DNA from: Candidatus Zhuqueibacterota bacterium
GTDB lineage: Bacteria; Zhuqueibacterota; Zhuqueibacteria; Oceanimicrobiales; Oceanimicrobiaceae
Assembly (NCBI GenBank): GCA_029262035.1
Contig: JAJDAE010000028.1
Location: 1-42,132, forward strand
Direction: 5' to 3'
Length of the DNA stretch: 42,132 nt
The position numbers and the translations under genes are program-made. The notes under the pieces were generated by a model. It was not told where the DNA came from and made no database searches. It worked only from the letters and a program-made list of their open reading frames with translations. This document shows positions 90-36,493 of the stretch, piece after piece (the first letter of the stretch is position 1; the number at the start of each line of letters is the position of its first letter).

Positions 90-94
90 AGTCA

Positions 95-130: not shown

Positions 131-203
131 AATATACTCACGGGCAACTTAACATGCAACAATATCACCCAACTTTATTGTATTGACTTGACACTAGGCC
201 CTA

Positions 204-1670: not shown

Positions 1671-1718
1671 CAACTTCTCCCGGGCAGATTCGGAGTGAAC
1701 TCAGACAGACTATTTTTT

Positions 1719-2750: not shown

Positions 2751-2760
2751 AGAAATCTCC

Positions 2761-5067
2761 CTAAATCTTCCACATTATACTGTCATCTATTCTCGGCTCT
2801 ACCTGCCGATACTTTTCCATCAGGTCAATTTTTCGCTGCACGAGCTCACCCAAATTCTCTCCATAAATATAGCTCGTCTCACCGGATTTTGATACCACCA
2901 TGAAATTGACTTCGCTGGATTCCCACAATTCAAGCAAATCTTTGGCATTCTGAATCTCGCTGGACATCATTTCATCAAGGTAATCTCGTCTGGATTTTTT
3001 TTGCTCATCCGATTCTGCTGCCAGATAACCATACACTCCTGCTACCCAACCAGCCACACTACGCTGTGTAATTGTCCAGCAACGTAAAGCTCGAAGGCGA
3101 TCTCTTTGGTCTATAAAAACCTCCCGAGCCCCGTCTGAAGTGGTAGAATCTTTAATTGCGTTCCCAGCCAATTCTATTGCAGAATTGAGTTTGCCCAAAA
3201 CATTCTCATCAACACGCTCCACATATTTCTCGCCATATTCTTGAGTTATCAAATCAAAAAGCACATCTCTACCCAAATCCACGAGATTGGTATTATTTGT
3301 TGTGCTCACCATGTAGTCCTCATAATATCTGCGGTCAGTTTCCGGGACAGCATGCAAATCGGGTATGATGGGGCGCACCCAAACACGTAACCAGACAAAA
3401 CCAAAAACTGAATATAATGGCATTGGTGGCAACCATCGCATAGCTTCTTCAGCCTGTTTCCAAACCTCCACAAGCCGGTCTGCACTCGACTCGCCAACCC
3501 AATCCACCGCTTTGCCCTTGATGAATTTTGTGATGTCGGTTTTCGGATCGAGAGAAAAAGCCCTGAAAACTTCCTGATTGATATGATAAGGGGCAAGTGC
3601 GGATGGCGTAAATCCACCTAAATTCGCAGCATGTTCAACGCCGTTGTCAACCATGGCCTGCAACTTTTGATGCAAAAGTCCGGGAAAAGGAATGCCAACC
3701 AGGGGCTCCAGATTATAGCCATTTCCATGAGAATAAATGAGGTGTGAATTCACTCCTTGCTCCTGGTGCTGCCGGATCATTTTATTTTCCTGTGGTTCCA
3801 TGTGAATGTGTTGGATGCTTCCGGCCACTCCGGCAATATCAGGATATTTGTCATGATGATAAGGCAGATCGTAACCGCGAACCAGCAAGGAAGGAACTTC
3901 GATATCCAGACGATCTTCAAGATGCTTCATGATTTCATCATGCTCAACCTTAAAGGGTTCAAGGCGAAGTGTCACATGAAAATCAGGATTGATATCAGAA
4001 GCGGCATCCCGAAGAATTTTCATGAAATGAACAATATTTTTCCCGGCAACCTCAGCAATCTGTTCATGAGTACGCCATTCGCGGATCAAATACGGCCCGC
4101 CGTTTCGGCCAACATAAAGTGAGCTGGTATATTCAAATCCGGCGCCGCTATCGTTGCTCCAAACACTCATGTAAGCCAAGTCCGGAACTTCATGCAATAT
4201 CTTTTGCAGCATTTCCCGGTAATGGTCTTGCACCATCGGATGAGAGTGCGTTAATGTATATCGAGGTAATCGGCTGCGAAATGGATGATCCACCCTGGCA
4301 CCGCGTAGTGTCGGATATTTTTGCAATAATTTTTCGGGAACAGTGCGCGGCTCAAAGCAAAGAATACCCGGTTCAAGACCATATTTGCGGCCAAGTTCTG
4401 CGTATCTTTTCAGGAGCGTTAAATTCGCCGTTAAGTAGTCGTTTGGATAAATACCTTTATTCAAATCACTATAAACATATTGATCTAATCCAAGACAATA
4501 GGAATAAAACTGCGAGTAAAATTCACCGGGAATGGCCTCTTCGTAAGGCACCGGCATTGCTAATCCATTCACCTCAATATGGGTATAGCCTGCTCTTGCC
4601 AGTTCTTTGATGTGTTCTTCGGGATTAAAATTTCGGGCGGTTCGCCAGGTTTGAGTCAGCAAATAGTCAAACAAAGGACGGTGCCACCGGAATGCCGTGG
4701 TTTGGTACGAACCATTTTCAAAATCAGCGGCCGGCAGCTTACTCCACTCTTCGAGCAAACGAGTTGTAAAAGCATATAATACCGATGAATGTGAAACAAT
4801 TAATTCCCCGGCACCATCCTGGCCTATTCGGAAATAAGTCCAGTTTTTATCAGAAGGGGCGCCACTTTCGATCCCATCAATTTCAAAATCTGCATTACTG
4901 CAAACAGCTACTTTAAATATTCCTGAAGATTCAGAAAGCGAGTTCCTCGTACTGATGTCGATATTCAAAGTCTTCTGGATTTCACCGGCGCTTGTTTCTT
5001 CTACGGGTAAAGGTTTTACCGGAATCTGAATTGTTTTAATTTTCTGCAATGCATCTAAAACTGTCAT
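2761..5067 (-). CDS. Large cytoplasmic glycoside hydrolase-like protein (GH67/GH20-type layout)
   Basis: I cannot name the exact family. The 768-residue protein has no signal peptide or membrane segment. An N-terminal alpha/beta domain of about 120 residues leads into what looks like a TIM barrel starting near residue 130 ([18 protein letters not shown], then [20 protein letters not shown]). The barrel has acidic and aromatic strand-end motifs such as [15 protein letters not shown] and [10 protein letters not shown]. The last 200 residues are helical. This arrangement resembles alpha-glucuronidases (GH67) and GH20 enzymes, which also carry a small N-terminal domain before the barrel. AGGAG lies 6 bases before the ATG. 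It overlaps the galT ribosome site and follows a DapA-family gene. A role on uronic-acid- or arabinose-bearing oligosaccharides taken into the cell is inference. Confidence 0.5.
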
Positions 5068-16691: not shown

Positions 16692-17285
16692 TTGGTTTCC
16701 TTTCGGTTAATCATCAAAAACCATTGAGCAAAAAGTAAACAAGTTTATTTTTGCTTTTGTTAAAAAATAAAATCTATTTTAATTCCACCAATGCTGAAAG
16801 TTTATCAACAAAATCCCTTAAAGGTGCAGAATAATTGGTGAATATGTTGAAGGATGAAAAGGCAATTTGATTTCAGCCATAGTTTTTTTTATTTTAAAAA
16901 TAATAACTTCACCAGTATTATTTCACTGAATTATTCAGGACATAAATCCTGTCAACAACTCCTAAAAACCTAAGTTAAACTATTGTTTTTCATGCTTAAA
17001 AAATTGCTTCCTTAGTTAGACAAGCCTTGCTGTTTCTGTATTAAGGGTACATAACCAAAAAGTCCGAATCAAGTATTTTCAAGCTCAGATTAGCCATTTT
17101 CTATATGTGCAATATTTTTTAGCATAAGTTGCAAAGATAATTGTTACCAATCTGTTAGATTTTAGCGTATATCTATATATTTTTCATAATTTTAAGCCTT
17201 AAGTTCCACTTTCGTACACTCTTATCAACATTATGCACAGAAGTAATATTTACTTTAACGCTTTAAATATTAAGGGAGGTGCATC

Positions 17286-17294
17286 ATGCCCTAA
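17286..17294 (+). other. Two-codon ORF (Met-Pro-stop) behind a strong ribosome site
   Basis: AAGGGAGGTGCATC is followed by ATG CCC TAA. The GGGAGG is better placed than most ribosome sites in this window, yet the frame closes after proline. It lies about 100 bases before the TonB receptor ATG. It may be a leader that sets ribosome occupancy, or the decayed start of a lost gene. No other evidence supports either. Confidence 0.3.
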
Positions 17295-17308
17295 GTTACA
17301 GTTGAGGT

Positions 17309-17331
17309 TTAAACAGTTTAAATCTGTTTAA
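17309..17331. promoter_or_regulatory. 8-bp palindrome, candidate operator
   Basis: TTAAACAG (17309-17316) and CTGTTTAA (17324-17331) are perfect inverted copies around 7 bases. They lie 66 bases before the TonB receptor start, and downstream of the mini-ORF, within the probable leader. It could be an operator or a small RNA hairpin. No regulator can be assigned. Confidence 0.35.
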
Positions 17332-17396
17332 GATTACAACAGTTAATTCTTTCTAACATTAATTGTACCTAACAAAATGAAACGGAGGACAGGAAA

Positions 17397-20300
17397 ATGA
17401 GGATATTTCCCTCCAAGCTAAATAGAATGTTATCTATCTTAACATTTATAACAATTCTAATGGCTTATGGCTCGCTGGTTTTTGCACAAACAACGGGCAA
17501 GATAGCAGGTGTAGTAAAAGAACAAGCAAATGGCGAAGTAATGCCTGGTGTGAATGTGATCATTGTGGGCACATCATTGGGTGCCAGTACAGATTCACAA
17601 GGACGTTATTTTATAATAAATGTCCCTCCCGGCACATTTACTGTTAAGGCCAGCTTTATCGGTTATAAAGCAATCGCCACAGAAAATGTTCAGGTCAGTG
17701 TAGGTTTGACGTCACATCATAATTTCCTTCTCGAAACAAGTGTAATTGAGGGAGAGGAAGTTGTTGTTCTCGCTGAAGCGCCACTGGTCGAAAAATCTCA
17801 GACCGCCACGGCGTCTAAGTACGGAGCAACTGAGCTCAACAATACACTCCCGGTTGCGAATATCAACCAGCTTATAGAATCCACACCTAGTGTTTATCGT
17901 GGATTTATTCGCGGCGGTAGCAAAGCTGAAACCAAGACTCTGGTCGACGGCGTTGATGTAACAGATGCCTATTTTTCCCGGGGTCAAGGCGCTTACGGTC
18001 GTGAGGCTGGACATTTCCATTTTAACATGACTCCTACCGATGAACGTGACAACGGCGGACTGACGGTCTCGGCCAGTGCCTTGCAGGAACTCCAGGTTTT
18101 CTCTGGTACTTTTGGTGCAGAATTTCCTGCCGCCACTGCAGGTATTGTCAATGTTGTCACTAAAGAAGGTGGACGGAAATTTACATTCAATGTATTTAAC
18201 AGAACCCAGGTAACATCCGGTAAAGAGCATCAGGGATCTAATATTTATCACGATGCAGATGCCTATTTAGCAGAAGGGCAAAAATTCACCGATGAAGACA
18301 GCCCTCGGGGTGCCCTTTACACATGGACACCGCAAAAAGCTAAGGATGAGTACAATTATGATCCGAGTAGTGGTGAAAGTCTGAGTCGTTCACATGAAAC
18401 TAACTTCACTGTTTCCGGTCCTCTTGGTAAAAAGGGTGGATTTTTCGTGGATGCTGGTTTAAACCAGACCGACGGAGCATTTCCTTTTGACCGTACTAAG
18501 AGAATTAATGGCAGCTTCAAGGCACATTATAATCTGGCTTCTAACCAGAAACTAACCGGAATGTTTCAATTCAACGATGGCGGCGAATTTTTCGATTTCG
18601 TTAATTGGAAATATAACCCCAGATATAAGTTCTTCATGGAGGGCGCTCCCCGATATAAGGATCTCTCCACAGTAGGGTATCTCAAGTATACCCATACCCT
18701 TAATGCCAAAACATTTTATGAAGTCAGGGCTTCACGTACGACCAATATTTCAAAGATTGGTTATCCTGATGACGATGGTGATGGCACACCTGGGTTGGAT
18801 GATACGGGTGACTTTATCAAATTCGATACAATTGATGAATACATCAAATATGTAGGCGGTAATGGTGAGGTTGGCTCGGAAAATGGTTTTGTTTTTGGGT
18901 CTACAGACCAACCGGTATTTTTTAGTTCCACGCTTAATCCAGCGGGTTGGCAAAAACTAAATCAAGCCGAATTTCCAGTTGGTGGGATTGGTGTAAACGG
19001 CCAGTACCTGACCTCTTATCCAATTGCAATGTATCAGGAATTTGGCAGAGATAAAGTCAACCTCAAGGTGGATTTAACCAGTCAGGTGACGTATAATCAT
19101 CAAATCAAAGCCGGAGCCAGTTACACCAGACACAGTGTAGAGGTTAATACATTTGTACCTGAGTTGTATGGTAGAGGTGAAGAGTTCCCGACCTCTAAAG
19201 CTCATGTTCAATTCCTCGATTTTCAGCCACAAGAATTCGCTGCGTATATCCAGGACCAAATCGAATTTGAAGGCTTGATAGTCAATATTGGCGCTCGTGT
19301 CGATGGTTTTGATAATGATACCGAGTTGTTCAGCAATGAATGGGATCCTGTGGATCAGGTCAACAACGAAGATGGTGATTTTCTGCGCTATGATGTCAAG
19401 CGTGGCGATGCGGTTGGTTATGAATGGTTCTTCAGTCCGAGAATTGGTGTATCCCATCCGGTAACAAATGACCTGGCCATGCATTATTCATTTGGTCGTT
19501 ATTTTCAATATCCAAATTATGCAACCCTCTATGAAGATTATAATTTCACCAATTATGCAGCTTCGCCCTCACCTCCATCTGTTCGTCCCGATCAAGATCC
19601 GATTCGGTCAATCAACTACGAGATTGGCGCTCAGTGGTCATTTACGGATGATTACCTGATCACCGGTACCGGATACTATCGTGATGTTGAAAAGACAGGT
19701 TCCCGAGCCTATACCTTGACAACTTCCGAAAATCTTCCAATCCGATTCAATACGACATGGGGATATTCGGATGCGCGTGGTATTGAGCTTGAACTAAGCA
19801 AAAGACCCGGCAAATGGTGGGGCGGACGTCTTTCTTATGCGTTTAGCTACATCAAGCAAGCCGGTGGTGTAGGAAGTTTTCAAGAGGCTTTCAGTGCAGG
19901 ACAGGACAGCACCGAGTTCGCGCGTCTTCCTTGGGAAGAACTTGAACGCCGACCTTCACGTGAACGTAATATTATTGTAACCCAGGGTGGCTCAAATCAA
20001 CTGTCAGGTGGCTTTGATCGTCCACATCGTTTGAATGGTACTTTGCAGCTATTCTTTCCGGCAAAGGTAAATGCCACGTTTATTGGTGAATGGACAAGTG
20101 GGTTCTATTACCAGCAGTTCCACGATGACCCTGATAATCCTGATGCATTTTTTGATCGCAATCTTAATCTGGGGATCGGTCCGAGTACTTACTTTGTGAA
20201 TGCTCGCCTTTCAAAACTCTTCAATTTCTCATCCCTGGGTTTGGAGCTGTTTTTTGAAGCTCGCAACCTGTTCAACCGCACGAACATCCGTAGTATTTCA

Positions 20301-23199: not shown

Positions 23200-24189
23200 A
23201 TGCAAAACAAAAAATACTTAACAGCATTTATCATCGTCGTGGTTATGCTAACGACGACGATGGGCTTTGCTCAAAAACCTGGGCTCACCGGAGCTTCATT
23301 TTTGAAGATTGCGGTTGGTGCTCGTCATACCGCCCTGGGTTCCGCCGTGACAACGGTTGCCGGCGATCCAACAATGATGTTTTGGAACCCGGCGGGCATC
23401 TATTCTGAAAAAACCAATATTTCTTTTAGCCATAATGATTGGTTAGTAGCCATGACTCATGACGCACTCGCTGCCACTTTCTATCTTGATGGCATCGGCA
23501 CCATTGGCGCCGGTATTATCTATCTTGGCAAGAGTGACATTACTGCGAACCGAGACATCGCTCCGACCCCTGGCACTGCATCTCAACAAGCAGATCAGGC
23601 AACTGGAGCTACTTATGACTTCTATGATTTGGCTGTAAACCTTTCCATATCCCGGAAATTTACAGACAAGTTAACGCTTGGCGCCAGCATCAAATTGATC
23701 CGTGAAAAGATCGACGATCTTGATGCCAGTGCGATCGCGGGTGATTTCGGGGTTATTTACAATTCAGGTTGGAGAAATCTGACATTCGGCGCTCGCTTGA
23801 CCAACCTTGGCGGCGACCTTGAATACTTTCAATTTGGTGCGCCGATTCCCCTGACCTTTTCAATTGGTGCTTCCTTTGGTATAGCAAATGAAAAGGACAA
23901 TAGACTTACCGCATATATCGATGCAACCAAGCCGCAAGACAATGAGCAGTCCTATTTCGGTGGCTTGGAATGGGAAATATTAGAGAAACTTACTTTACGT
24001 GGAGGCTATAAATTTGGTCTTTCCGGAACAGAAGATTCCTTTAATATCGAGAATACCGATGAAGGCGCTTCATTCGGTGGCGGACTTGTGATCCCCTGGA
24101 GCAGTGCAGATATGAGTATAGACTATGCCTTTACAGACTTTGGTCTACTCGACGATACGCATAGATTCTCTTTCACAGTATCATTCTGA
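23200..24189 (+). CDS. PorV/PorQ family outer-membrane protein
   Basis: A FadL-like beta-barrel. The signal peptide ends at about residue 24 (TTMGFAQ). The mature start shows the family signature GASFLKIAVGARHTALGSAVTTVAGDPTMMFWNPAGI. Later come repeated beta-strand motifs (LGASIKLIREKI, TFGARLTNLGGDLEY, LTLRGGYKFGLSG), ending in HRFSFTVSF. In T9SS bacteria PorV shuttles sorted cargo, and in FCB genomes such proteins are often encoded just after a TonB receptor and a cargo with a sorting tail, as here. 329 residues is the common size. The ribosome site is GAGGAG. Other T9SS core genes (porT, sov) are not in the window. Confidence 0.85.
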   Translation: MQNKKYLTAFIIVVVMLTTTMGFAQKPGLTGASFLKIAVGARHTALGSAVTTVAGDPTMMFWNPAGIYSEKTNISFSHNDWLVAMTHDALAATFYLDGIGTIGAGIIYLGKSDITANRDIAPTPGTASQQADQATGATYDFYDLAVNLSISRKFTDKLTLGASIKLIREKIDDLDASAIAGDFGVIYNSGWRNLTFGARLTNLGGDLEYFQFGAPIPLTFSIGASFGIANEKDNRLTAYIDATKPQDNEQSYFGGLEWEILEKLTLRGGYKFGLSGTEDSFNIENTDEGASFGGGLVIPWSSADMSIDYAFTDFGLLDDTHRFSFTVSF

Positions 24190-24288: not shown

Positions 24289-26181
24289 ATGAAACTCCTT
24301 TTCAGAAACAAGGCATACCATCACATAGCTAATATATTAACAACTCTCTTTCTATTTTTCTCATTCCCGTTACTCTTTTCTAATTCAATTTCTGCGCAAA
24401 CCTTTAAATTACAACCCAATCAGACAGGTCTTTCAAATGCCTACTATGGAAATGGCGTTGCTGCAGCCGATTACAATAACGACGGCCACATTGATATTTA
24501 CTTCGTGTCCAGCGATCCCAGACACCCATCCCACCCTGGCTCAGCTAATTCACTTTTCAAAAATAATGGAGACGGCACCTTTACAAATGCTGCCAAAGAG
24601 GCCGGCATAGAGGGCATTATCGATACCACAGCCAGTCCTCAAAATCAATTGGTTGAAAATTTCGGTGCATCGTGGGGAGATTTTGACAATGACGGCGATG
24701 TTGATTTGTATTTGAGCAACAAAGGAGTTGATGAACTGTATGAGAATTTAGGAGATGGAACTTTCAGAAATATCACACAAAGTGCCGGCCTTGATTTATT
24801 GATTAGGGACAGTGTCAACGCTGTTTGGTTTGATTTGGATAAAGATGGCAATCTCGATCTTTATGTTTGCGGCTACGGGAAACACGGCTTACATGCTAGC
24901 AGCGACAATATAATGTACCGCAACAACGGCGATGGCACATTCACTGATGTTACCGCCGTCACACGGCTGGGCGAACCCGGCTTTACCTACACGGCATTAA
25001 TATTAGATGCCAATATGGACGACTGGCCGGATATTTATTGTGTGAACGATTTTGGCCGCAACGTCTTTTATTTAAACAACAGCGATGGCACCTTTCATGA
25101 GGCTACAAAAGAATACGGATTGGAAAATGATGGCCATGGCATGGGCGCCGCCATTGGGGATTACAATAATGATGGCCTTTTCGATATTTACTATACCAAT
25201 ATTGGCGATGATATTAACCTGGAGTGGAGTCCACTGGTCCGTCACACAGCATCCGGTATTTATGAGGACGTTAGCCGGAAGTCCGGAACTGCAATTACAC
25301 ACTGGGCCTGGGGTTGTGAATTCCTTGATTTCGATTTAGATGGAGACCTCGATCTTTATGTCGCTAATGGATTTTTTGGAGAAAACTATGGCAACCTTCT
25401 TTATCGAAACAATGACGATGGTACATTTGAGGATATCAGCGCGCTGAGCGGCGCCAACCATCAACCGGAAGCCCGGGGGTTATGTGTAGCCGATTTTAAC
25501 AACGATGGCCGGCTTGACATGGTGGTAGCAAACTTGAGGACCACTGCAAATTTGTATATAAACACAACACGTAATGGGAATTATTTAAAATTAAACCTAG
25601 TTGGAACTCAAAGCAATCGCGATGGCCGGGGAGCCGTAGTTAGCATTACTGCAAGTGACAGGACTCTTCATAGAACTAACGACGGTATTGAGTTACATGG
25701 ACAGTCGAAGGTACCTGTCCATTTTGGTTTGGGTAATGAAACGATTGTAGATATTAAGGTGAAGTGGCCATCCGGCATTGAACAAGAATTTTTCACTGTG
25801 TCCGCAGCAAATCAGTCACTCACGATTACCGAAGGCATGGGTATGGAAAAGACCATCATCTCAGCTGTTGTGAAAAATGATGGCCCTGTACCAGACGAAT
25901 TTTCTTTGCTAGATAACTATCCAAACCCTATACTCAATAGCACCAAACTTCGTTTTCAGTGCGCTTTTTCAGCGCGTATTAAGATTGAAATTTACAATTT
26001 AAATAATCATCTTATTGCCACTCCGGTTGAGGGATATTTTAGAGCGGGTGAACATGGCATAGCCTGGGATGGCGCCGACAAAAATGGGACCCCCCTCTCT
26101 TCCGGAATCTATATTCTAAAATTCTCGAGCGGAAACTTTGTAGCACAAAAAAAATTAATTAAATTGGACAACTTTCATTAA
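24289..26181 (+). CDS. Secreted CRTAC1-type beta-propeller with ASPIC/UnbV domain and sorting tail (copy 1)
   Basis: The signal peptide ends near residue 36 (NSISAQ). Seven FG-GAP/VCBS blades each carry a calcium loop of the form DxNxDGxxDIY (first DYNNDGHIDIY, last DFNNDGRLDMV), which suggests a seven-bladed propeller over residues 45-430. An ASPIC/UnbV domain follows at about 440-520 (NRDGRGAVVSITA, HFGLGNE, VKWPSGIEQEF). A T9SS/FlgD-type tail closes the protein (LLDNYPNPILN, GIAWDGADKNGTPLSSGIYILKF). It probably sits on the cell surface. The ligand is unknown; related proteins are seen as adhesive or enzyme-associated. The next gene is a close paralogue. The ribosome site is weak, and the gene follows the hairpin that seems to close the receptor transcript. 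Confidence 0.85.
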   Translation: MKLLFRNKAYHHIANILTTLFLFFSFPLLFSNSISAQTFKLQPNQTGLSNAYYGNGVAAADYNNDGHIDIYFVSSDPRHPSHPGSANSLFKNNGDGTFTNAAKEAGIEGIIDTTASPQNQLVENFGASWGDFDNDGDVDLYLSNKGVDELYENLGDGTFRNITQSAGLDLLIRDSVNAVWFDLDKDGNLDLYVCGYGKHGLHASSDNIMYRNNGDGTFTDVTAVTRLGEPGFTYTALILDANMDDWPDIYCVNDFGRNVFYLNNSDGTFHEATKEYGLENDGHGMGAAIGDYNNDGLFDIYYTNIGDDINLEWSPLVRHTASGIYEDVSRKSGTAITHWAWGCEFLDFDLDGDLDLYVANGFFGENYGNLLYRNNDDGTFEDISALSGANHQPEARGLCVADFNNDGRLDMVVANLRTTANLYINTTRNGNYLKLNLVGTQSNRDGRGAVVSITASDRTLHRTNDGIELHGQSKVPVHFGLGNETIVDIKVKWPSGIEQEFFTVSAANQSLTITEGMGMEKTIISAVVKNDGPVPDEFSLLDNYPNPILNSTKLRFQCAFSARIKIEIYNLNNHLIATPVEGYFRAGEHGIAWDGADKNGTPLSSGIYILKFSSGNFVAQKKLIKLDNFH

Positions 26182-26239
26182 GGCAATGCAGAAAAGCTTA
26201 GCCCTTGTAACGGTGACCTCGGTCTACGGATAAAGAGAT

Positions 26240-28078
26240 ATGAAAAAAATTTGCTCGGCCTTAATACTGAATTTATCCATTTTCTTACTTATATCCACGT
26301 CATCATTTGCACAGCCATTTCAACTAAAAACTCTGCAGGTCGGCTTGGAATATGCCTTCTATGGCAATGGTGTTGCCGCCGCCGATTATGACAATGACGG
26401 ATTTATTGATATTTATTTTGTGTCCAGAGCTCCCAACTCCTCTTCCCACCCTGGCTCACCTAATTCACTTTTCAAAAATAATGGAGACGGCACCTTTACC
26501 AATGTTGCTAAAAATGCTGGCGTAGAGGGTATCATCGATACCACAACCATTCCGCAAAATAACTTGGTTGAAAATTTCGGTGCTTCGTGGGGAGACTTTA
26601 ACAATGACGGTGATGTCGATTTGTATCTGACCAATAAAGGGGTTGACGAACTTTATGAAAACTTAGGGGATGGTACTTTCAGGAATATCACACACAGTGC
26701 CGGGCTGGATTTATTAATACGCGACAGTTCCACTGCAGCTTGGTTCGATCTGGACAAAGATGGTGATCTCGACCTTTATGTTAGTAGCTACGGTGAACAC
26801 GGCTTAACTGCCAGCAGCGACAATGTCATGTATCGTAACAATGGAGACGGCACATTCACGGACATTACAACTATCACGGGCCTGGGCGAATCCGGAAATA
26901 CTTACGTGACAATGATATTGGACGCCAATATGGACGGCTGGCCGGATATTTATTGCGTGAATGACTTTGGTGATAACTATTTTTATCTAAACAGAACCGA
27001 TGGCACCTTTCGGGAAGCCACGCAGGAATACGGGTTAACGAACAACGGTCACGGTATGGGAGTCACCTTGGGAGATTACGACAATGATGGTCTCTTTGAT
27101 ATTTACCATACTAATATTGCAGACGACCTTAACGGAGAGTGGAGTCCCCTTTTCCGCCACACAGGCTCCGGAAGTTTTCAGGACGTTACGCAGCAGACCG
27201 GAACAGGAATAACAAACTGGGCCTGGGGCTGCGAATTTTTTGATTTTGACTTAGACGGCGACCTTGATCTTTATGTAGCCAATGGTATTTTTGGAAACGC
27301 ATTTCACAACCTGCTTTTTAGAAACAATGGTAATGGTACCTTCGAAGATTTTAGCGAACAGAGTGGTGCTAACGGCCAGGCAGAAGCTCGAGGATTATGC
27401 GTTGCGGACTTTGATAATGATGGTCGGCTTGATATAGTGGTGGCAAATTTGAAAACCGCTGCATATTTATATCAAAATGCAACACAAGATGGCAATTACT
27501 TGAAAATCAATTTAATAGGAACACACAGTAATCGGGATGGCCGTGGGGCCGTAGTTAGAATTACGGTCGACAATAAGACTTACCACAGACCAAACGATGG
27601 CATTGAGTTTTTTGGACAGTCGAAAACACCAATTCATTTTGGCTTAGGCAGTGCGCAGACTGTGCAGAATATCAAAGTAGAATGGCCATCCGGAATACAA
27701 GAAGAATTTCAGAACATACCAGCAAACCAAACAATAACGATAAAAGAGAATTTGGGTATTGTAACCGGGATAAAAATTAAAAACAGCACACCGCCAAAAG
27801 GTTTCGCCTTACTGAATAATTATCCCAATCCATTAAACAATCGCACCCATATCCTATTCAGGGCGGGTGCATCAGCCCATATTAAAATTGAAATATATGA
27901 TATATTAGGCCGTCTCGTTGCTATTCCGGTACTGGCTCGCTTTGCGGCCGGGGATCATTCTATATCTTGGAACGGAACTGACAGAAATGGTCAACCTCTT
28001 CCCTCGGGGATATACATACAAAAATTTTCAAGTGGTCATTTTATAACCTATCGCAAGTTAACAGTGCTGAAGCAATGA
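26240..28078 (+). CDS. Secreted CRTAC1-type beta-propeller with ASPIC/UnbV domain and sorting tail (copy 2)
   Basis: This paralogue of the preceding gene has the same order: signal peptide (to SSFAQ, about residue 24), seven calcium-loop blades (first DYDNDGFIDIY, last DFDNDGRLDIV), ASPIC/UnbV domain (NRDGRGAVVRITV, HFGLGSA, VEWPSGIQEEF) and sorting tail (LLNNYPNPLNN, SISWNGTDRNGQPLPSGIYIQKF). Many stretches are nearly identical to copy 1 at protein and DNA level, for example NLVENFGASWGDF and DELYENLGDGTFRNIT. It starts 58 bases after copy 1. The differences cluster in loop residues, which could change ligand preference. Function unknown beyond surface location. Confidence 0.85.
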   Translation: MKKICSALILNLSIFLLISTSSFAQPFQLKTLQVGLEYAFYGNGVAAADYDNDGFIDIYFVSRAPNSSSHPGSPNSLFKNNGDGTFTNVAKNAGVEGIIDTTTIPQNNLVENFGASWGDFNNDGDVDLYLTNKGVDELYENLGDGTFRNITHSAGLDLLIRDSSTAAWFDLDKDGDLDLYVSSYGEHGLTASSDNVMYRNNGDGTFTDITTITGLGESGNTYVTMILDANMDGWPDIYCVNDFGDNYFYLNRTDGTFREATQEYGLTNNGHGMGVTLGDYDNDGLFDIYHTNIADDLNGEWSPLFRHTGSGSFQDVTQQTGTGITNWAWGCEFFDFDLDGDLDLYVANGIFGNAFHNLLFRNNGNGTFEDFSEQSGANGQAEARGLCVADFDNDGRLDIVVANLKTAAYLYQNATQDGNYLKINLIGTHSNRDGRGAVVRITVDNKTYHRPNDGIEFFGQSKTPIHFGLGSAQTVQNIKVEWPSGIQEEFQNIPANQTITIKENLGIVTGIKIKNSTPPKGFALLNNYPNPLNNRTHILFRAGASAHIKIEIYDILGRLVAIPVLARFAAGDHSISWNGTDRNGQPLPSGIYIQKFSSGHFITYRKLTVLKQ

Positions 28079-28424
28079 AGCCATGTCTTCAACCCGAAAA
28101 AATGTTCAGTCTAGGTGCGAGGTCTGCGCTGTATGAATTCAACTATTTAAAATGATTTTTCTTACCCTTATGTTTTTTTTGAACTTGTTGATTATTTGTC
28201 TTTTAATCTAATTTTATTTAAATCGAACCAAAGTTGATGACTCTTTGGTTTCCTATGGTTCTAACAGTAGTACATATATAGATTATCATTACAATTAATA
28301 ACTTAATCCGTTAATATATTTGATTGTAAGATAATCACTTCTCATTCAGATTCATGATAAATTGGCATGGACAACACAGGTATCGTCCATGCCGAAGACA
28401 CCAAACTCTTGGGAGGTAAACCGC
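28079..28424. promoter_or_regulatory. 346-base AT-rich gap before the cytochrome operon
   Basis: No gene was seen. It is very AT-rich, most strongly at 28140-28225 and 28260-28335, and probably carries the promoter of the cytochrome set. One inverted repeat, AACCAAAG (28226-28233) with CTTTGGTT (28243-28250) around 9 bases, is the only clear structure. It has no U-run and could be an operator. An in-frame ATG at 28362 exists but lacks a ribosome site. Confidence 0.45.
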
Positions 28425-30509
28425 ATGAATAACCTACAGACACAGGAAACCAAGGCCAGGGAATGGCAGCATAAGCTACTCTATTTCGTTTCAGGATTTT
28501 TACTTTTTGAAACCTTGACAGGGTTGTCTATTTACTTATTGCCCTTCAATGTTTCAAATCAGATTACGGTGTTGCTGCATACGGTAGTGGGTCTAATATT
28601 TATCATTCCCTATGTCTGGTATCAAATTCGTCATTGGCTCATCTACCGTGCCGCGACCATGAACCACATCAAGCTCACGGGATACCTTGCCATGGCGATC
28701 ACCATTGTGGCTTCCGTTTCCGGGCTACTTCTTACTTATCAATCTTTTTTTCAAACCAGAATTAACTACACGTGGGATCTGATTCACATCCTCTCCACGT
28801 TTGCATTGATCGCTTTTTTGGTTCCGCACCTTGCTGTTATTGTAATTCGCAATATCAAAGCAGGCAAGCTCGAAACACTGGCACCGGTGACCTCGGCTCA
28901 AAGGCGTTTTGGTTTCAATAGTTTGTTGATCGTTGTTTTTCTATTTGTCGCTGTCGGCCTGTTGGCTTATGCTTACGAACCTGTTCAGTTAGTAAATGAA
29001 CTTCCACAAGATTACAGTTACCTGTATGGACCGGAGCGCCCGTTCGCCCCAAGTTTAGCCAATACCAGCACCAATGGAGCCTTTGATTCGCGATCCCTGA
29101 GCGGGTCAGAGAGTTGTGGTACCTCCGGATGCCACCAACAAATTTATCAGGAATGGCAGGTCAGTGCCCATCGCTACTCGGCAATGGATCCGGCGTTTCA
29201 GGCTGTACAAAAAGTAATGGCTGAACAGAATGGACCGGAGTCGACTCGATATTGTGGCGGTTGCCACGATCCGATTTCACTCTTTTCCGGCACAAAGAAT
29301 ATTTTCACTGAAGACCTCACCAATCTCGCAGGCTATCAAGAGGGAATCTCCTGCATTGCCTGCCATGCGATTAAGGAAACAGACATCAAAGGCAACGCAA
29401 ATTATGTGATGACTCAACCGAAACGATACATGTTTGAATTAAATAAAAGCAAACCGGCTCGTCTGATCAGTGATTTTTTAATACGCGCCTACCCGCGTTA
29501 TCATGTTGAGAGTCTCCAACATCGCATGTTCAAGAGTCCGGAGTTCTGTGCGGCTTGCCATAAGCAATTCATCGATCAAGAAGTCAATAAAGTCGGCTGG
29601 GTGCAATTACAAAATCAATATGATAATTGGCGCAAAAGTCAATGGAATCATCCCGGGGATCCGACCAAAACCATTCAGTGCCGAGAATGTCACATGCCTC
29701 TAAGTGAATCGTCTGATCCGGCGAGTGGTGACGACCTGGACTATAACCGCACGACTGGCGATAAAAAACACCGGAGCCACCGTTTTCTGGGAGCCAATCA
29801 GTTTGTCCCCAAATTTTTGAATCTACCTGGAGCGGATGAACATACGGCGTTAACCGAAAAATGGCTGCGCGGTGAATTTGAATTACCTGAGATCGCCGAT
29901 AAATGGCGATCAGGCCCTGCCGTACCTCTTGATCTGGTTGTGCCGGAAAAAATTGTTCCCGGTGAAGAAGTTAAGATTCAAGCCTTTATGAGTAATTCTA
30001 AGGTGGGTCATGATTTCCCGACCGGTCCGCTGGATATTATACAAGCCTGGGTTGAATTGAATGTAACTGATCAGAATGGTAACCAAGTCTATAGTTCTGG
30101 TACAAGGGACGACCGTCATTTCATCGAGGAGGGTTCTTTTATCTTCAAGGCTGAGGCCGTGGACCAATATGGCAATTTGATCGATAGACATAACCTGTGG
30201 GAGATGGTTGGCGTAAGGTTCAAACGCGCCATGTTCCCGGGTTTTTCAGATAAGGCAGAGTTTACTTTCCCCTGCCCCACCAGCATGACGGTCAATAAAT
30301 CCAAGCGTCGTGAAAAAGAAGAATTTCAATTCAAATTGCCGAATAAACCAATTACTGAACTGCGGATCGAGGCAAAGTTGATGTACCGGAAAGTCGATCA
30401 GTTCCTACTCAACTTTCTCTTTGGTGAGGAAGCGGGTGTAACCGCTCCCATCACGGTAATTTCTGAAGATCGAGAAACGATAAAAGTAGAAACGATGGGG
30501 ACCTGGTAA
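28425..30509 (+). CDS. Membrane cytochrome b-like / pentaheme cytochrome c fusion
   Basis: Four hydrophobic helices at about 17-143 carry paired histidines (LLHTVVG H52, IRHW H70, LIHILS H121, VPHL H135), like a di-heme b-type anchor. A fifth helix at about 165-183 leads to a periplasmic part with five c-type heme sites: C231-H237 (CX4CH), C277-H281, C310-H314, C375-H379 and C419-H423. The C-terminal domain has SKVGHDFPTGPLD, a motif known from multiheme cytochromes related to c554. It would pass electrons between quinones and an unknown periplasmic partner. I chose ATG 28425 (694 residues) because GGGAGG lies just upstream; the longer reading from 28362 has none. It leads a compact operon, 4 bases before the CRTAC1 gene. 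Confidence 0.82.
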   Translation: MNNLQTQETKAREWQHKLLYFVSGFLLFETLTGLSIYLLPFNVSNQITVLLHTVVGLIFIIPYVWYQIRHWLIYRAATMNHIKLTGYLAMAITIVASVSGLLLTYQSFFQTRINYTWDLIHILSTFALIAFLVPHLAVIVIRNIKAGKLETLAPVTSAQRRFGFNSLLIVVFLFVAVGLLAYAYEPVQLVNELPQDYSYLYGPERPFAPSLANTSTNGAFDSRSLSGSESCGTSGCHQQIYQEWQVSAHRYSAMDPAFQAVQKVMAEQNGPESTRYCGGCHDPISLFSGTKNIFTEDLTNLAGYQEGISCIACHAIKETDIKGNANYVMTQPKRYMFELNKSKPARLISDFLIRAYPRYHVESLQHRMFKSPEFCAACHKQFIDQEVNKVGWVQLQNQYDNWRKSQWNHPGDPTKTIQCRECHMPLSESSDPASGDDLDYNRTTGDKKHRSHRFLGANQFVPKFLNLPGADEHTALTEKWLRGEFELPEIADKWRSGPAVPLDLVVPEKIVPGEEVKIQAFMSNSKVGHDFPTGPLDIIQAWVELNVTDQNGNQVYSSGTRDDRHFIEEGSFIFKAEAVDQYGNLIDRHNLWEMVGVRFKRAMFPGFSDKAEFTFPCPTSMTVNKSKRREKEEFQFKLPNKPITELRIEAKLMYRKVDQFLLNFLFGEEAGVTAPITVISEDRETIKVETMGTW

Positions 30510-30513
30510 AATA

Positions 30514-32319
30514 ATGCTGAGTAGATTTTCGCGCCGACGGCGACTTATTATTTTTACTACAGGTCTCGGCGTGCTTTTTTTAGGAACAGTATCTCTGACA
30601 ATCTGGTTGCAGTCAGAAAAAAAACCGTATCTCCCAGGGGAAAAGATCGACGGTGTGGTTGCAAGGCTTACCCGCAATCTACCTGACAATTATCCTAAAA
30701 TAACTTTTGTGGATGCCAGCAAAGATGCCGGCATCGAGTTTCGCCATTTTTCAGGCCAACGTAGCTCACAACTCCCTGAGGACATGGGATCCGGAGCTGC
30801 GTGGGGAGATTACGACAACGATGGCTGGCCTGATCTATTCGTCGTCAATCAGGTTGGCCCACTGACCCTTTCTGATGAGGGGATCTCACAATCTCCGGCA
30901 CATTGCGCTCTTTATCACAACAACCGTGATGGCTCTTTTACTGAAGTAAGTGAGCAGGCAAGCGTTGATTTCAGGGGCTGGGGAATGGCTGCTGTTTGGG
31001 GAGATGCGAACAAAGATGGTTGGCTCGATCTTTTTGTAACCAATTATGGAGAGAATATATTTTACCAAAACAATGGCAATGGCACTTTCAGCAACAAGAC
31101 CAAAGAAACAGGTTTGGGAAATTTAAGAGGTTTCTGGGCCGGTGCTTCCTGGGCTGATTTTAACCGCGATGGATTTTTGGACCTGTTCGTTTGCGGTTAT
31201 GTGAAGTATGAAGATCTTAGAGATCTTGGTACCGCCATGCAATATAATGTGGCTACGCCAGCAAGCATTAATCCCTCTACTTTTGCCCCTGAAAGAAATC
31301 TGTTATACCAAAATAATGGCGATGGCACTTTTACAGAAATAGCGATGCGGGTCGGTGTAGCTGGACAAAACGGCAAAAGTCTAAACGCCGCCTGGTGCGA
31401 TTTTGATGATGATGGCTGGCCTGATCTCTATGTAGCAAATGATGTTTCGGATAATGTGTTTTTACGCAATTTGGAGGGAAACGTTTTCGAAGAAATCAGC
31501 CACAAAGCGATGGTAGCCGATTACCGTGGCGCCATGGGCATCGGCATTGGTGACTGGGATCGCGACGAGGATATGGACATGTTTGTCACCCATTGGATCG
31601 CTCAAGAAAACGCGCTTTATACCAACAAATCCGGAGAATTTTCACATAACGATTCCAAGGTGAAAGCGATCAGGTTTATGGATGAAGCCGATCGTTATGG
31701 CCTGGGTCAAATCGCACTGGATTATATCGGCTGGGGGACATCCTTCTTTGACTATGATAACGACGGACGTCTTGACTTATTCGTTGCCAACGGCAGCACG
31801 TTCCAGCAAAAGGAAAATTCGCATCTATTGCTCCCGATGCGGGATTTATTGTTCTGGAATGCCAGTGTGGATGAGGGCTTTTTTGATGTTTCTCTGGTCA
31901 GTGGGAAGATATTTAACACTAAAAAAGTTAGTCGCGGAGCCGCATTTGCTGACTACGACAACGATGGGGATGTTGATATTTTTGTTGTCAATAACGGCGA
32001 ACAATGCATCCTTTTAAAGAACGAAGGGGGCAACCAAAACAACTGGCTAAAAGTCGAGCTAACGGGAGAAAAAAGTAATCCTCAGGCAATCGGGGCTAAG
32101 CTGCGAGTGGTTACTCAAGATGATATTCAAATTAGGCAGGTGGGTGCGCAATGTTCCTATATGTCGCAGAACAGCCTGGTTGAGCATTTTGGCCTGGGAA
32201 GCCAAAGCCAATCTGATACTCTTGAAATAATCTGGCCGAGTGGATTAAAGCAGGTTTTTGAAAATCTTTTAGCCAACCAAACCTTAAGGATCACGGAAGG
32301 TAAAGATATTAAAAAATAA
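30514..32319 (+). CDS. Membrane-anchored CRTAC1-type propeller with ASPIC/UnbV domain
   Basis: One N-terminal helix (residues 11-32, after an Arg-rich start) anchors the protein or acts as an uncleaved signal. Seven calcium-loop blades follow (DYDNDGWPDLF, DANKDGWLDLF, DFNRDGFLDLF, DFDDDGWPDLY, DWDRDEDMDMF, DYDNDGRLDLF, DYDNDGDVDIF), then an ASPIC/UnbV domain (GAKLRVVTQDD, EHFGLGSQ, IIWPSGLKQVF). Unlike the two upstream propellers it has no sorting tail, so it should stay in the periplasm on the inner membrane. Its start is 4 bases after the multiheme cytochrome stop and the TPR gene follows after 6 bases. Cytochrome, propeller and TPR protein therefore probably work together. Its function is unknown. 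Confidence 0.82.
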   Translation: MLSRFSRRRRLIIFTTGLGVLFLGTVSLTIWLQSEKKPYLPGEKIDGVVARLTRNLPDNYPKITFVDASKDAGIEFRHFSGQRSSQLPEDMGSGAAWGDYDNDGWPDLFVVNQVGPLTLSDEGISQSPAHCALYHNNRDGSFTEVSEQASVDFRGWGMAAVWGDANKDGWLDLFVTNYGENIFYQNNGNGTFSNKTKETGLGNLRGFWAGASWADFNRDGFLDLFVCGYVKYEDLRDLGTAMQYNVATPASINPSTFAPERNLLYQNNGDGTFTEIAMRVGVAGQNGKSLNAAWCDFDDDGWPDLYVANDVSDNVFLRNLEGNVFEEISHKAMVADYRGAMGIGIGDWDRDEDMDMFVTHWIAQENALYTNKSGEFSHNDSKVKAIRFMDEADRYGLGQIALDYIGWGTSFFDYDNDGRLDLFVANGSTFQQKENSHLLLPMRDLLFWNASVDEGFFDVSLVSGKIFNTKKVSRGAAFADYDNDGDVDIFVVNNGEQCILLKNEGGNQNNWLKVELTGEKSNPQAIGAKLRVVTQDDIQIRQVGAQCSYMSQNSLVEHFGLGSQSQSDTLEIIWPSGLKQVFENLLANQTLRITEGKDIKK

Positions 32320-32325
32320 CGCAAT

Positions 32326-33198
32326 ATGAAAAAATTACTACCTATTTCAGGCATCACAATTATAATTCTATTCGCAACCATCACTTGGTTTAAAAGCAGA
32401 TCCCCCTCGGTTGATTTGCAGACCGATAATACAGCATTGAGCGAGGAAGATAAAAACAGAACACAACAATTTTGGCAAATCTATCGCCAGGCGGGAGAAC
32501 ATCGCCTGGCAGGTAGGCTGGAAAAGGCCAACGAGAGTTATAAACATGCGCTCCAACTCAAACCAGACCATGAAAACACGTTGTACTACTTTGGAAGCAT
32601 TTCGTTTGCTTTGAGTAAATTCACTCAGGCAGAAAAGGCTTGGAAGCAATTGCTTGTTGTTGATTCCACCAATGCCCGCGCTCACTATCAGCTCGGAAAT
32701 TTATACCTGAACACTGAGCATGAAGAATTCTTTAATATCCAAAAAGCTGAAGCTCAATTTCGCTCGGCCCTCAGAATAAATAAGGAAGAATCCAGTCCGC
32801 ACCTGCGTTTGGGTCATGTGGCATTGATTAATGACAACTTGCAGCTGGCCGGACAGCACTTTGATGCTGTGCTGGGCTCCAACTTTAAAAGTATCGAAGC
32901 CTATTTTTTGAGAGGTTATGTCGCCTGGGAAAAAGGAAATTTTGAAAAAGCTCTATCTATGTTGGGCAATGCCAGAAAGCATTCCAAGCCTGTGCAACCG
33001 ATTAAAGGCGTTCGCGGCGAAGGTGATACTAAACCGGGAGGACTTTTTGAGCAACTGAAGTTGTCAAGACGTAAGTCAATGTTCCACCCTTTTTTCGACG
33101 AAATTTTAAAATTAGACGAATCAAAAATATCACATCCGGTTATGGAAAAGAAATACCAGGAACTGCAATTTTTTCTAAATAAAATAAGGAAAATTTGA
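32326..33198 (+). CDS. Membrane-anchored TPR protein
   Basis: A hydrophobic N-terminus (residues 2-22, LLPISGITIIILFATITWF) is followed by about four to five tetratricopeptide repeats. The clearest are GRLEKANESYKHALQLKPDH, FTQAEKAWKQLLVVDSTN, AEAQFRSALRINKEE and GNFEKALSMLGNARKHS. TPR domains hold protein complexes together. The gene starts 6 bases after the CRTAC1 gene and most likely scaffolds the periplasmic complex of the cytochrome and the propeller. TPR and CRTAC1 genes are often neighbours in other environmental bacteria, as I recall. No enzyme motif is visible. Confidence 0.78.
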   Translation: MKKLLPISGITIIILFATITWFKSRSPSVDLQTDNTALSEEDKNRTQQFWQIYRQAGEHRLAGRLEKANESYKHALQLKPDHENTLYYFGSISFALSKFTQAEKAWKQLLVVDSTNARAHYQLGNLYLNTEHEEFFNIQKAEAQFRSALRINKEESSPHLRLGHVALINDNLQLAGQHFDAVLGSNFKSIEAYFLRGYVAWEKGNFEKALSMLGNARKHSKPVQPIKGVRGEGDTKPGGLFEQLKLSRRKSMFHPFFDEILKLDESKISHPVMEKKYQELQFFLNKIRKI

Positions 33199-33345
33199 GG
33201 CTAAGGCATATCTGTTTCAGACATTTTGCTCATAGCTTAAAAAAATAAAAATCTTCACTTTCATTACCCTTAACCGTTTGCTTTTTTGAGTATATTTTAT
33301 TAATTTATATTAATGTTTTGACTATGCGAGGAGCAGTTGATATCT

Positions 33346-34113
33346 ATGAATGAAAAAATGAAAAGCGGAATATGGGCCATCCTAATAATAACAGCAATCA
33401 TACTGATTATGACCTTTGTGCTAAAGCCCCTAACACAGCAATCAGACTCTTTAGAAGTAAACAAGAAGTCAGTAACTATGATAACGGAAGATGGCATAGA
33501 GCTTTCTGCTGACCTATACAACCCGAACTCTGATAAGGAGAAATATCCCGGAGTTGTCCTTCTCAGCCCTTTTGGAGAATCCAGAGAAATTTATTCCGAC
33601 CTTGCCACCGAGCTTTGTAATAATGATTTTGTTGTGCTGTCTGTTGATGTTAGAAATTCAGGTGCCTCACAGATTGACAATGAGTCAGTTGTGGAAAGCA
33701 TTGCTAACCTGGGGATTGATGCCGACACGGCTGTACACCTCTTACTTGAGCAATCCAATGTAATGCCTGATAAAATAGCAATTCTGGGTACGGCATTAAC
33801 TGCGCGAAGCGCTTTGATGGTTACTGACTTGAACAATAAGTTAAGTGGTGCTATTCTGGTCTCGGCAGTGATGGATTCAGCTGGATATAATACAATCGAG
33901 GACTCTCCTGACTGCCCGATATTGGTACTGGTTAGCATTCAAGACGTGCACTCAGCTTCACAGGCTCTTGCTATTTATCAAACAAGTCAAAACCCATTAA
34001 GCAAAATTGAAACGTATATCAATGCCGGTGGAGGAAGCGATCTGTGGCGTTCACAAGCAAAATTCGAAATGACATCTCTTATTACAGAATGGCTGACTAA
34101 GGTTCTTTTGTAA
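33346..34113 (+). CDS. Alpha/beta-hydrolase-fold protein without catalytic Ser and His
   Basis: A hydrophobic N-terminus (about 8-28) anchors or exports the protein. The fold is recognisable: GIELSADLYNP, YPGVVLLSPFGESRE (oxyanion region), FVVLSVDVRNSGAS, KIAILGTALTARSAL and CPILVLVSIQDVHS. In active relatives the nucleophile elbow reads G-x-S-x-G; here it is GTALT (148-152) with alanine at the serine position. Where the catalytic histidine is expected (after INAGGGSD) there is none, while the acid region (D200) is kept. It is probably a non-catalytic relative. ATG 33346 was chosen; TTG 33337 in the same frame lies closer to GAGGAG and is the alternative. It lies 147 bases after the TPR gene and 20 before a dioxygenase. 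Confidence 0.65.
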   Translation: MNEKMKSGIWAILIITAIILIMTFVLKPLTQQSDSLEVNKKSVTMITEDGIELSADLYNPNSDKEKYPGVVLLSPFGESREIYSDLATELCNNDFVVLSVDVRNSGASQIDNESVVESIANLGIDADTAVHLLLEQSNVMPDKIAILGTALTARSALMVTDLNNKLSGAILVSAVMDSAGYNTIEDSPDCPILVLVSIQDVHSASQALAIYQTSQNPLSKIETYINAGGGSDLWRSQAKFEMTSLITEWLTKVLL

Positions 34114-34133
34114 CCTTACTTTAGGAGTTTACT

Positions 34134-35018
34134 ATGGGAATTCGCCCATTTGTTGAATCTCAGGATTTGCTCGATCAACCAACCGCCCTTAGAAATCGCT
34201 TAAATGAAGATGGCTATTTATTTTTTAGAAATCTTATCGATCGCGAACCTTTGCAAAATCTTCTTATTGAGATACTTAATATTTGCAAAAAATACGGTTG
34301 GCTATTAGAAGGTTCGGATCTACTTGCCCGGAAAGGCAAGTCCGATGCATATAGTGGATATTTTGAATTTACCGATGTCTACAGCGAGATACAGAAATTA
34401 GAAAACTTCCATCTTCTTGCCAATCATCCCAAAATCATTTCAACTCTTTCTGGTATTTGGGGTGGTCATGTATTCCCTCATCCACGTAATATTGCCCGTA
34501 TTACGCTGCCCGGATCCTCAAAAAAGACGACGCCATCACATCAGGATTATGTCTTTATTCAAGGTAGCCAGGAATTTCATACGGTCTGGTTCCCTCTGAG
34601 TGATTGCCCTAAAGAATTAGGTGGATTGTTGGTTGCACGCAATTCTCATAAAGCTGGCATTCTACCTACTCAAGAAGCTGAAGGGACAGGTGGACTATGT
34701 GCAGTTGTGGACGATGAAGCTCAGGAATGGCTTAGCACTGATTTTCAATTAGGCGATGTTATTATTTTTCATTCCCTAACAGTTCACAAAGCTTATCCCA
34801 ATATTACGGACGAACTTCTACGTGTTTCATGTGACTTTCGTTATCAGGCCATGAATGAGCCTGTGGTGGTGTGGGATACGCTTCGCCCCCACATGCAATT
34901 ACATAGCTGGGAGGAAATTTATTCAGATTGGGCTCGAGATGACCTTAAATATTATTGGCATAAATACAAATTACAGGTAGTTCCAGTCTTGGAACCTGGA
35001 GACGTTCCACCAACTTGA
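34134..35018 (+). CDS. PhyH-family Fe(II)/2-oxoglutarate dioxygenase
   Basis: Phytanoyl-CoA dioxygenase-like enzymes hydroxylate small molecules using iron, oxygen and 2-oxoglutarate. The HxD pair is H136/D138 in TTPSHQDYVF, the distal histidine is H218 in FHSLTVHKAYPN, and R230 in ELLRVSCDFRY is the likely 2-oxoglutarate anchor. The N-terminal LRNRLNEDGYLFFRNLI is the family opening. It has 294 residues and no signal peptide, so it is cytoplasmic. AGGAG precedes the ATG. It lies between the hydrolase-like gene and the GWxTD gene, on the same strand. The substrate is unknown. Confidence 0.82.
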   Translation: MGIRPFVESQDLLDQPTALRNRLNEDGYLFFRNLIDREPLQNLLIEILNICKKYGWLLEGSDLLARKGKSDAYSGYFEFTDVYSEIQKLENFHLLANHPKIISTLSGIWGGHVFPHPRNIARITLPGSSKKTTPSHQDYVFIQGSQEFHTVWFPLSDCPKELGGLLVARNSHKAGILPTQEAEGTGGLCAVVDDEAQEWLSTDFQLGDVIIFHSLTVHKAYPNITDELLRVSCDFRYQAMNEPVVVWDTLRPHMQLHSWEEIYSDWARDDLKYYWHKYKLQVVPVLEPGDVPPT

Positions 35019-35101
35019 AATTAACCAAACCAAAAGCCGGCTTCTGTCTCAGTATGTATCATGACCACAGCGCCCTTTTGCAACAAAGAGGTTTAAGCGA
35101 A

Positions 35102-36493
35102 ATGTTTAGATATTTAAAACTTACTTTCTTTTGTTTGATGCTGCACACTCTGATTTTTCCAGACTTTGTAGCTGGGCAATTGGCTCAACCTCAAAAACCT
35201 TTAAGATTAAGTGTGGATGTTGCCAAATTCCGGGGAGATGTTACTCACACAAAGCTTGAAATTTATCAAAGTATAAACCGTCAGGGGTTGACGTATCAAA
35301 ACAATAACCCAGGCTACATTGCACGATTTAAGCTGGATACGAAAATCATTCAAAAAGACTCCGTTGTTTTTCAAGAAGAAATTGTTGAAACTGATACTGT
35401 TTTTAACAATGATCTTATCGAACCCGGCCAACAGTTTATTTTTACACAACCCTTCTTTTTGAAGCCGGGCCATTATCAAATACTGACAACCCTACAGGAT
35501 ATTAATAACGGCAGCAAATCCTCTAACCGTGTGCCGGTAGAAATTTCAACCTTCCCTGAGGATTCACTTGTGCTAAGTGATATCCAGTTTGCCTCACACA
35601 TTAAGAAAGCTACAGATGTCAACAACCCCTTCGTCAAGAACAATCTGCACGTCATGCCAAATCCCCAATCGCTATATGGTGATGGAATGGAAAATCTCAC
35701 TTTTTATGCAGAATTGTATAATCTCGGTTTTTCCAATGGCTCTGAGGGAACCTATTGCGTCGACTATATCATTGAGAATACTGAAGGTAAAACTCTGAGT
35801 CGCATTCGCGGCAAGCAACGCCCCCAGAGAGGTAAAAATGCAGCAATCTATACTTCCTTCGATCTTTCCACCCTTGAGAGCAATCGATATATTCTCAAGT
35901 TGGATGTAATTGATAACACCTCAAATAGACATACAGATATTTCAAAAACATTCTCAATATTCAGAAAGGCCGATGCTTTAGCGCTCGAAATTGATCAGGA
36001 GCGCAAAGTGTATCGGGAATTTGATGAACCTGCCTTGCAAAACTATTTCGAACAAATTGCTTATATTGCAACCAATGAGGAAAAAAAAGTATTTAAGCAG
36101 TTGGAGTTAAAAGGAAAGAGAGAGTTCATATTCCAATTTTGGCAAACCAGAGATCCTAGCCCTGACACACCGGAAAACGAATTCAAAAATGACTATATCC
36201 AGCGGTTGTTCAAAACTAAAATCAATTTTTCCGTTAGTGAAACTGATGGCTGGAAAACCGATAGGGGGAGAATCTTTTTAATATATGGCCCACCCGATTT
36301 CCTTGATCGGGAACCTGCTTTACTTGATAGAAATGCCCATGAAATTTGGAGCTATGAAACGCTTCAGGGTGTACAAGGCCAGTCTATATTTGTATTTATA
36401 GATTTAGCCGATAACGGCAAATATCGCCTTATCCATTCTGACTATCGTGATGAAATAACTAACCCGGCTTGGGAATCATATCTCTACAAATAA
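35102..36493 (+). CDS. Secreted GWxTD domain-containing protein
   Basis: The C-terminal domain carries the name motif in ETDGWKTDRGRIFLIYGPPDF, followed by EIWSYETLQGVQGQSIFVFID. Upstream is FIFQFWQTRDPSPDTPENEFKNDY, also typical of this domain, which occurs at the C-terminus of exported proteins of Bacteroidota, Acidobacteriota and related groups and has no known activity. The N-terminal 290 residues look like beta-rich Ig-like repeats. ATG 35102 gives a clean signal peptide (MFRYLKLTFFCLMLHTLIF, to about VAGQ) and has AGAGG 10 bases upstream. The longer reading from TTG 35015, overlapping the dioxygenase stop, would bury the signal peptide. It ends the plus-strand set. Confidence 0.75.
   Translation: MFRYLKLTFFCLMLHTLIFPDFVAGQLAQPQKPLRLSVDVAKFRGDVTHTKLEIYQSINRQGLTYQNNNPGYIARFKLDTKIIQKDSVVFQEEIVETDTVFNNDLIEPGQQFIFTQPFFLKPGHYQILTTLQDINNGSKSSNRVPVEISTFPEDSLVLSDIQFASHIKKATDVNNPFVKNNLHVMPNPQSLYGDGMENLTFYAELYNLGFSNGSEGTYCVDYIIENTEGKTLSRIRGKQRPQRGKNAAIYTSFDLSTLESNRYILKLDVIDNTSNRHTDISKTFSIFRKADALALEIDQERKVYREFDEPALQNYFEQIAYIATNEEKKVFKQLELKGKREFIFQFWQTRDPSPDTPENEFKNDYIQRLFKTKINFSVSETDGWKTDRGRIFLIYGPPDFLDREPALLDRNAHEIWSYETLQGVQGQSIFVFIDLADNGKYRLIHSDYRDEITNPAWESYLYK

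Follow-up and report, generated by a model that had tools for sequence, protein, structure and literature searches.

A cytochrome gene, a CRTAC1-type propeller gene and a gene for a TPR protein, lying close together on one strand, form a module which is almost certainly real and deeply conserved. The module is apparently undescribed, as we could not find an account of a CRTAC1/UnbV, multihaem cytochrome and TPR unit in the open-access full-text literature, and it is built on a known pentahaem cytochrome family. The window, i.e., the whole stretch of DNA analyzed, is an entire contig (G000:C191) of 42,132 bp. It belongs to a metagenome genome of 5.3 Mb (96% complete), among whose nearest relatives is a genome of the candidate division KSB1. 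The original prediction had postulated six plus-strand genes as one undescribed envelope redox system, the first three being 4 and 6 bases apart. All six genes were found and their domains are backed by Pfam and NCBIfam (Table 1). The gaps along the genes amount to 4, 6, 138 and 20 bp, followed by an overlap of 4 bp. The notion of an undescribed redox system held for the first three genes, but had to be given up for those encoding the hydrolase, PhyH and GWxTD proteins.

Table 1. Features of the six-gene region, numbered from the first nucleotide of the window.
Feature	Position	Strand	Properties
Upstream region	28079-28424	+	346 bp; presumed own promoter
b-c cytochrome	28425-30509	+	694 aa; ATG behind GGGAGG; Pfam Cytochrome_C554
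CRTAC1-type propeller	30514-32319	+	601 aa; FG-GAP and UnbV_ASPIC; polybasic N-terminus, membrane anchor
TPR protein	32326-33198	+	290 aa; own N-terminal membrane anchor
Hydrolase-like (alpha/beta-hydrolase)	33337-34113	+	Pfam/NCBIfam; outside three-gene unit
PhyH	34134-35018	+	Pfam/NCBIfam; outside three-gene unit
GWxTD	35015-36493	+	Pfam/NCBIfam; outside three-gene unit

Orthologs of the cytochrome (identity about 37-73%) were collected by scanning one genome per species, which yielded 70 loci. They span about ten phyla, with the labels Acidobacteriota, Verrucomicrobiota, Planctomycetota, Poribacteria, Fidelibacterota (Marinimicrobia), KSB1, Krumholzibacteriota, Chloroflexota, Pseudomonadota, Elusimicrobiota and Aminicenantes, of which those given to MAGs may err. 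CRTAC1 is located directly 3′ of the cytochrome gene and on the same strand in 67 of the 70 loci, while in the other three the contig stops less than 400 bp past the cytochrome gene. CRTAC1 is thus the next gene wherever there is room for it (67/67), which, in a set chosen by cytochrome similarity, shows that the cytochrome goes with CRTAC1 and not the converse. The grouping of the three genes is far above chance. This agrees with the original prediction, which had named them the firmest unit and had made this unit depend on co-occurrence in other genomes. No further gene was seen to recur throughout the 70 loci. The genome of the window contains 13 matches to UnbV_ASPIC, one of which belongs to the unit.

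TPR repeats follow CRTAC1 in 57 of the 67 loci. They are in frame with CRTAC1 in 44 loci, with two more frames open at the contig end, and reside on a separate gene in eleven, an arrangement also present in the window. The fusion of CRTAC1 and TPR is backed by Pfam, e.g., in the verrucomicrobial locus L074. In seven loci the TPR status was unreadable because of the contig end, and in three the repeats are absent, namely in two loci of Elusimicrobiota and in one whose frames are broken. Most free-standing TPR proteins possess an N-terminal membrane segment of their own, while the fused ones have none, as would be expected if both CRTAC1 and TPR must sit at the membrane. Diverged cytochromes (25-30% identity), several of which adjoin CRTAC1 genes, carry a TPR tail themselves, which together with the CRTAC1-TPR fusions indicates that TPR has been joined to either partner. 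The cytochrome and CRTAC1 co-evolve; their pairwise distances gave a Mantel r of 0.95 (51 loci), to which shared ancestry contributes. For the cytochrome and TPR a value of 0.89 was obtained.

Shared strand and tight spacing in the window are in favor of a single pathway made up of all six genes. Hydrolase, PhyH and GWxTD genes, however, were not found near the orthologous unit at any of the ortholog loci. Moreover, a genome of the same family (G005, locus L142) contains the order of the window without the cytochrome triplet. It starts with a 20556-type protein, a PorV-like protein and a T9SS-tailed CRTAC1, continues with thioredoxin-like, porin-like and YVTN genes (read from translations) and ends with hydrolase, PhyH, GWxTD and a MetE-like gene. 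In G003, hydrolase, GWxTD, a TonB receptor and a 20556-type gene occur, likewise without the triplet. This synteny refutes the six-gene pathway, to which we assign next to no chance, and indicates that a resident locus of the TonB/PorV type has received the triplet as a cassette. To this locus, and not to the unit, the genes for hydrolase, PhyH and GWxTD must be assigned, so that the reservation made at the outset, that the last three genes might be separate, proved justified. Describing the hydrolase as dead was reasonable as well, since GTALT replaces GxSxG at the expected position. The G005 version reads GTGIT, and the retention of a hydrolase devoid of GxSxG in two genomes of the same family argues for a conserved non-serine form. 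Upstream of the unit, after a PorV-like gene (23200-24189), region 24289-28078 encodes in tandem two secreted CRTAC1 proteins that bear T9SS-type/FlgD-like tails; they belong to another CRTAC1 branch than the CRTAC1 of the unit.

The AlphaFold2 model of the cytochrome (pLDDT 79) revealed five membrane helices, a pentahaem region and a C-terminal Ig-like domain. Four CXXCH motifs (C277xxCH, C310xxCH, C375xxCHK, C419xxCH) and one CX4CH motif (C231x4CH) were identified, whose cysteines and histidines are invariant in 62 sequences. More than 100 positions of the protein are invariant in this set, among them His52 and His70 in helix 43-74 and His121 and His135 in helix 115-146 of the model. These four histidines on two helices are predicted to hold two b haems. 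Two b haems held in this way by four histidines on two membrane helices would conform to a membrane quinol-cytochrome oxidoreductase. As five histidines outside the motifs (249, 360, 452, 529, 589) are invariant too, all five c haems could be six-coordinate and hence non-catalytic.

The only strong PDB match was 5ze8, the pentahaem cytochrome c552 of Thermochromatium tepidum (E 8e-8, TM-score 0.61 on the target). This cytochrome, ExtKL and GSU2801 have been united as the PHC family in a 2025 study on cable bacteria (PMC11976967). Our protein shares with them the five c haems, the fold of the c domain (model compared with 5ze8) and the C-terminal Ig-like domain. The known members are soluble or secreted, whereas the cytochrome of the window has an additional N-terminal five-helix domain, predicted to be a di-haem b domain, and is accompanied by CRTAC1 and TPR partners. 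It is related to ExtKL but is not ExtKL, judging from a score of 33.4 bits against an equivalog cut-off of 250. A nitrite reductase of the NrfA type was rejected, since every motif ends in CH, CXXCK being absent, and Pfam Cytochrom_C552 (PF02335) was not matched at E 0.01.

CbcL-type b-c quinone oxidoreductases of Geobacter likewise combine a b-type domain in the membrane with a multihaem c domain. Compared by description only, CbcL resembles the cytochrome of the window in this combination and differs from it in domain order and haem number. The b-c fusion might mean that the complex is a quinol oxidase of the inner membrane which serves, like CbcL, as a gate for extracellular electron transfer, passing electrons via periplasmic carriers to minerals and using CRTAC1-TPR as docking scaffold. 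That ExtKL of Geobacter belongs to the PHC family would fit this explanation, as would, by analogy, a cultured Bryobacterales isolate that reduces Fe(III) and possesses membrane multihaem cytochromes (PMC8407742). We nevertheless regard it as unlikely, though deserving serious attention, because neither an outer-membrane beta-barrel porin, as in a porin-cytochrome conduit, nor a second multihaem cytochrome recurs in the flanks of the unit, where NO-type genes recur instead.

The CRTAC1 protein of the unit contains an FG-GAP propeller and a UnbV_ASPIC domain, as is typical of this family. Its model (pLDDT 90.7) matched murine cartilage acidic protein 1 (CRTAC1, 9etn) with an E value of 3e-29. 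Propeller and ASPIC fold are common to both proteins, but the bacterial one has a membrane anchor, which is kept in orthologs, and is associated with a cytochrome and TPR. Bacterial CRTAC1 proteins thereby gain a concrete molecular partner.

In Acidobacteriota, the units adjoin RIC, NnrS, haemerythrin and Rrf2/Crp genes. Among 288 flank proteins of these loci, haemerythrin ranked first in the Pfam tally (14), and ScdA_N, NnrS, Rrf2 and Crp families were among the commonest. The identity of RIC is backed by NCBIfam and that of NnrS by Pfam above the cut-off. In nine of the genomes that were searched, RIC is located close to the unit, compared to a chance estimate of about 0.1 (based on about 31 RIC genes and genomes of about 7 Mb), and these loci are spread over several parts of the tree. 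Upstream of the cytochrome gene, the CRP/FNR-type palindrome NTGAY-N4-RTCAN was detected in 21 of 65 regions, while random windows gave a mean of 2.5 and a maximum of 11. All seven verrucomicrobial loci exhibited an FNR-type box (TTGAY-N4-RTCAA) at this place. The box of the Acidobacteriota is mostly GTGAC-N4-GTCAC, and the same palindrome precedes cytochrome and RIC genes. The pattern GTGACT-N3-GTCAC, which occurs 2 to 11 times in a whole genome and in most cases clearly more often than the reversed control, was found at most 250 bp upstream of all eight RIC genes of six genomes, but not directly at RIC in three further genomes (G118, G119, G124). These sites point to a putative small regulon comprising RIC and the cytochrome unit. 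In the Acidobacteriota genomes G116-G134, GTGAC-N4-GTCAC was also noticed upstream of NnrS, Crp and glutamine amidotransferase genes besides RIC (putative regulon).

The proposal that we favor, with somewhat less than even confidence, is that the products of the triplet form a periplasmic, quinol-linked multihaem complex anchored in the inner membrane, whose most likely task is the reduction or removal of NO or a related N-oxide. It builds on the gene set, its order, the fusions, the co-evolution, the predicted topology and the conserved haem ligands, and in Acidobacteriota on the context and boxes common with NO-stress genes. Electrons from the quinol pool would pass to the two b haems of the helical domain and on to the five c haems, the multihaem head being the site of N-oxide reduction or removal. 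The calcium-propeller CRTAC1 with its TPR arm may act as a dedicated periplasmic partner for docking, assembly or substrate gating. We infer the direction of electron flow, the substrate and the role of the propeller. An N-oxide role of the module is plausible in view of the RIC, NnrS, haemerythrin and Rrf2/Crp flanks, the GTGAC-N4-GTCAC and FNR-type boxes and the HZS-like neighbors described below. For the c part, there are the match to 5ze8 and the PHC family, some members of which are fused to truncated haemoglobin and have been classed as potentially catalytic (PMC11976967). What speaks against the N-oxide proposal is that CRP/FNR boxes can signal low oxygen rather than NO, and that the five invariant histidines outside the motifs could render all c haems non-catalytic. 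The hosts are not classical denitrifiers, and classical denitrification was dismissed, since the copper nitrite reductase NirK was above the cut-off in only three of 38 host genomes. In Acidobacteriota and Verrucomicrobiota, which abound in soil, an unnamed respiratory module appears to share its regulation with NO-defence genes. It might fill a gap in NO or N2O conversion or offer a new outlet for electrons, and the promoters or neighborhoods common to the unit and NO-defence genes in several lineages make its function testable.

The binding folds of TPR and propeller and the more than 100 invariant positions would also suit a membrane redox sensor or a protein-folding assembly whose multihaem head would inform the CRTAC1/TPR adaptor of the redox state. 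Yet a signalling domain was found in none of the three proteins, and we deem this explanation very improbable.

Neither NO genes nor a CRP/FNR-type box occurs near the unit in the window, including its 346-bp upstream region, or in FCB relatives. Hence, the NO reading applies to the copy of the window by homology, and we infer that this copy acts like those of the Acidobacteriota. RIC is present elsewhere in the genome (C359), whereas NnrS was not matched there in a search whose control genomes were silent too; the same NnrS model matched in 13 of 38 other genomes. Promoter and terminator scans gave signals at or below shuffle level. Position 28364-28393 harbors a perfect dyad, GGCATGGAC-N12-GTCCATGCC, with 9-bp arms, 31 bp before the cytochrome ATG. 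It was discarded as a conserved operator, being unique in the genome save for hits with three mismatches and absent upstream in relatives.

Genes resembling hydrazine synthase adjoin the unit at two loci. In L041 (Fidelibacterota; 14735-17888), an HzsA-like (alpha) gene lies 1 bp behind another CRTAC1 gene. L074 contains the end of a CRTAC1 gene, an HzsA-like (alpha) and an HzsB-C-like (beta-gamma) gene (1-3782; E 2.9e-47 for the latter), which are separated from the cytochrome by one further gene and a pair of periplasmic-binding-protein-like genes, of which NCBIfam confirmed one. As their scores are far below the curated family cut-offs, these HZS-like proteins are relatives rather than hydrazine synthases. 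The layouts of both loci match published clusters, in which CRTAC1 stands beside hydrazine-synthase homologs, i.e., multihaem nitrogen-cycle-like proteins; a cytochrome-CRTAC1-TPR unit is not described in the text of that study (PMC12758564). The neighbors might hint at a reverse flow, in which a reduced nitrogen compound (hydroxylamine- or hydrazine-like) is oxidized together with the HZS-like proteins and electrons enter the quinone pool. With two loci only, low scores and a regulation pattern that suits stress or low oxygen, we consider such a flow improbable. Returning to NO reduction, it is rather unlikely, albeit conceivable, that the module represents a new class of quinol-dependent NO (or hydroxylamine) reductase, consisting of a b2c5 PHC cytochrome and an obligate CRTAC1-TPR subunit, occurring across about ten phyla and in some cases coupled to HZS-like enzymes.

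Two loci showed peculiarities. In L112 (G027:C27), a decayed copy of the cytochrome gene was detected, whose N-terminal part is about 58% identical and which is interrupted by stop codons. At L115 (1184-8447), an orthologous CRTAC1-TPR pair adjoins a diverged TPR-tailed cytochrome and the CRTAC1 belonging to it, an arrangement possibly reflecting partner exchange.
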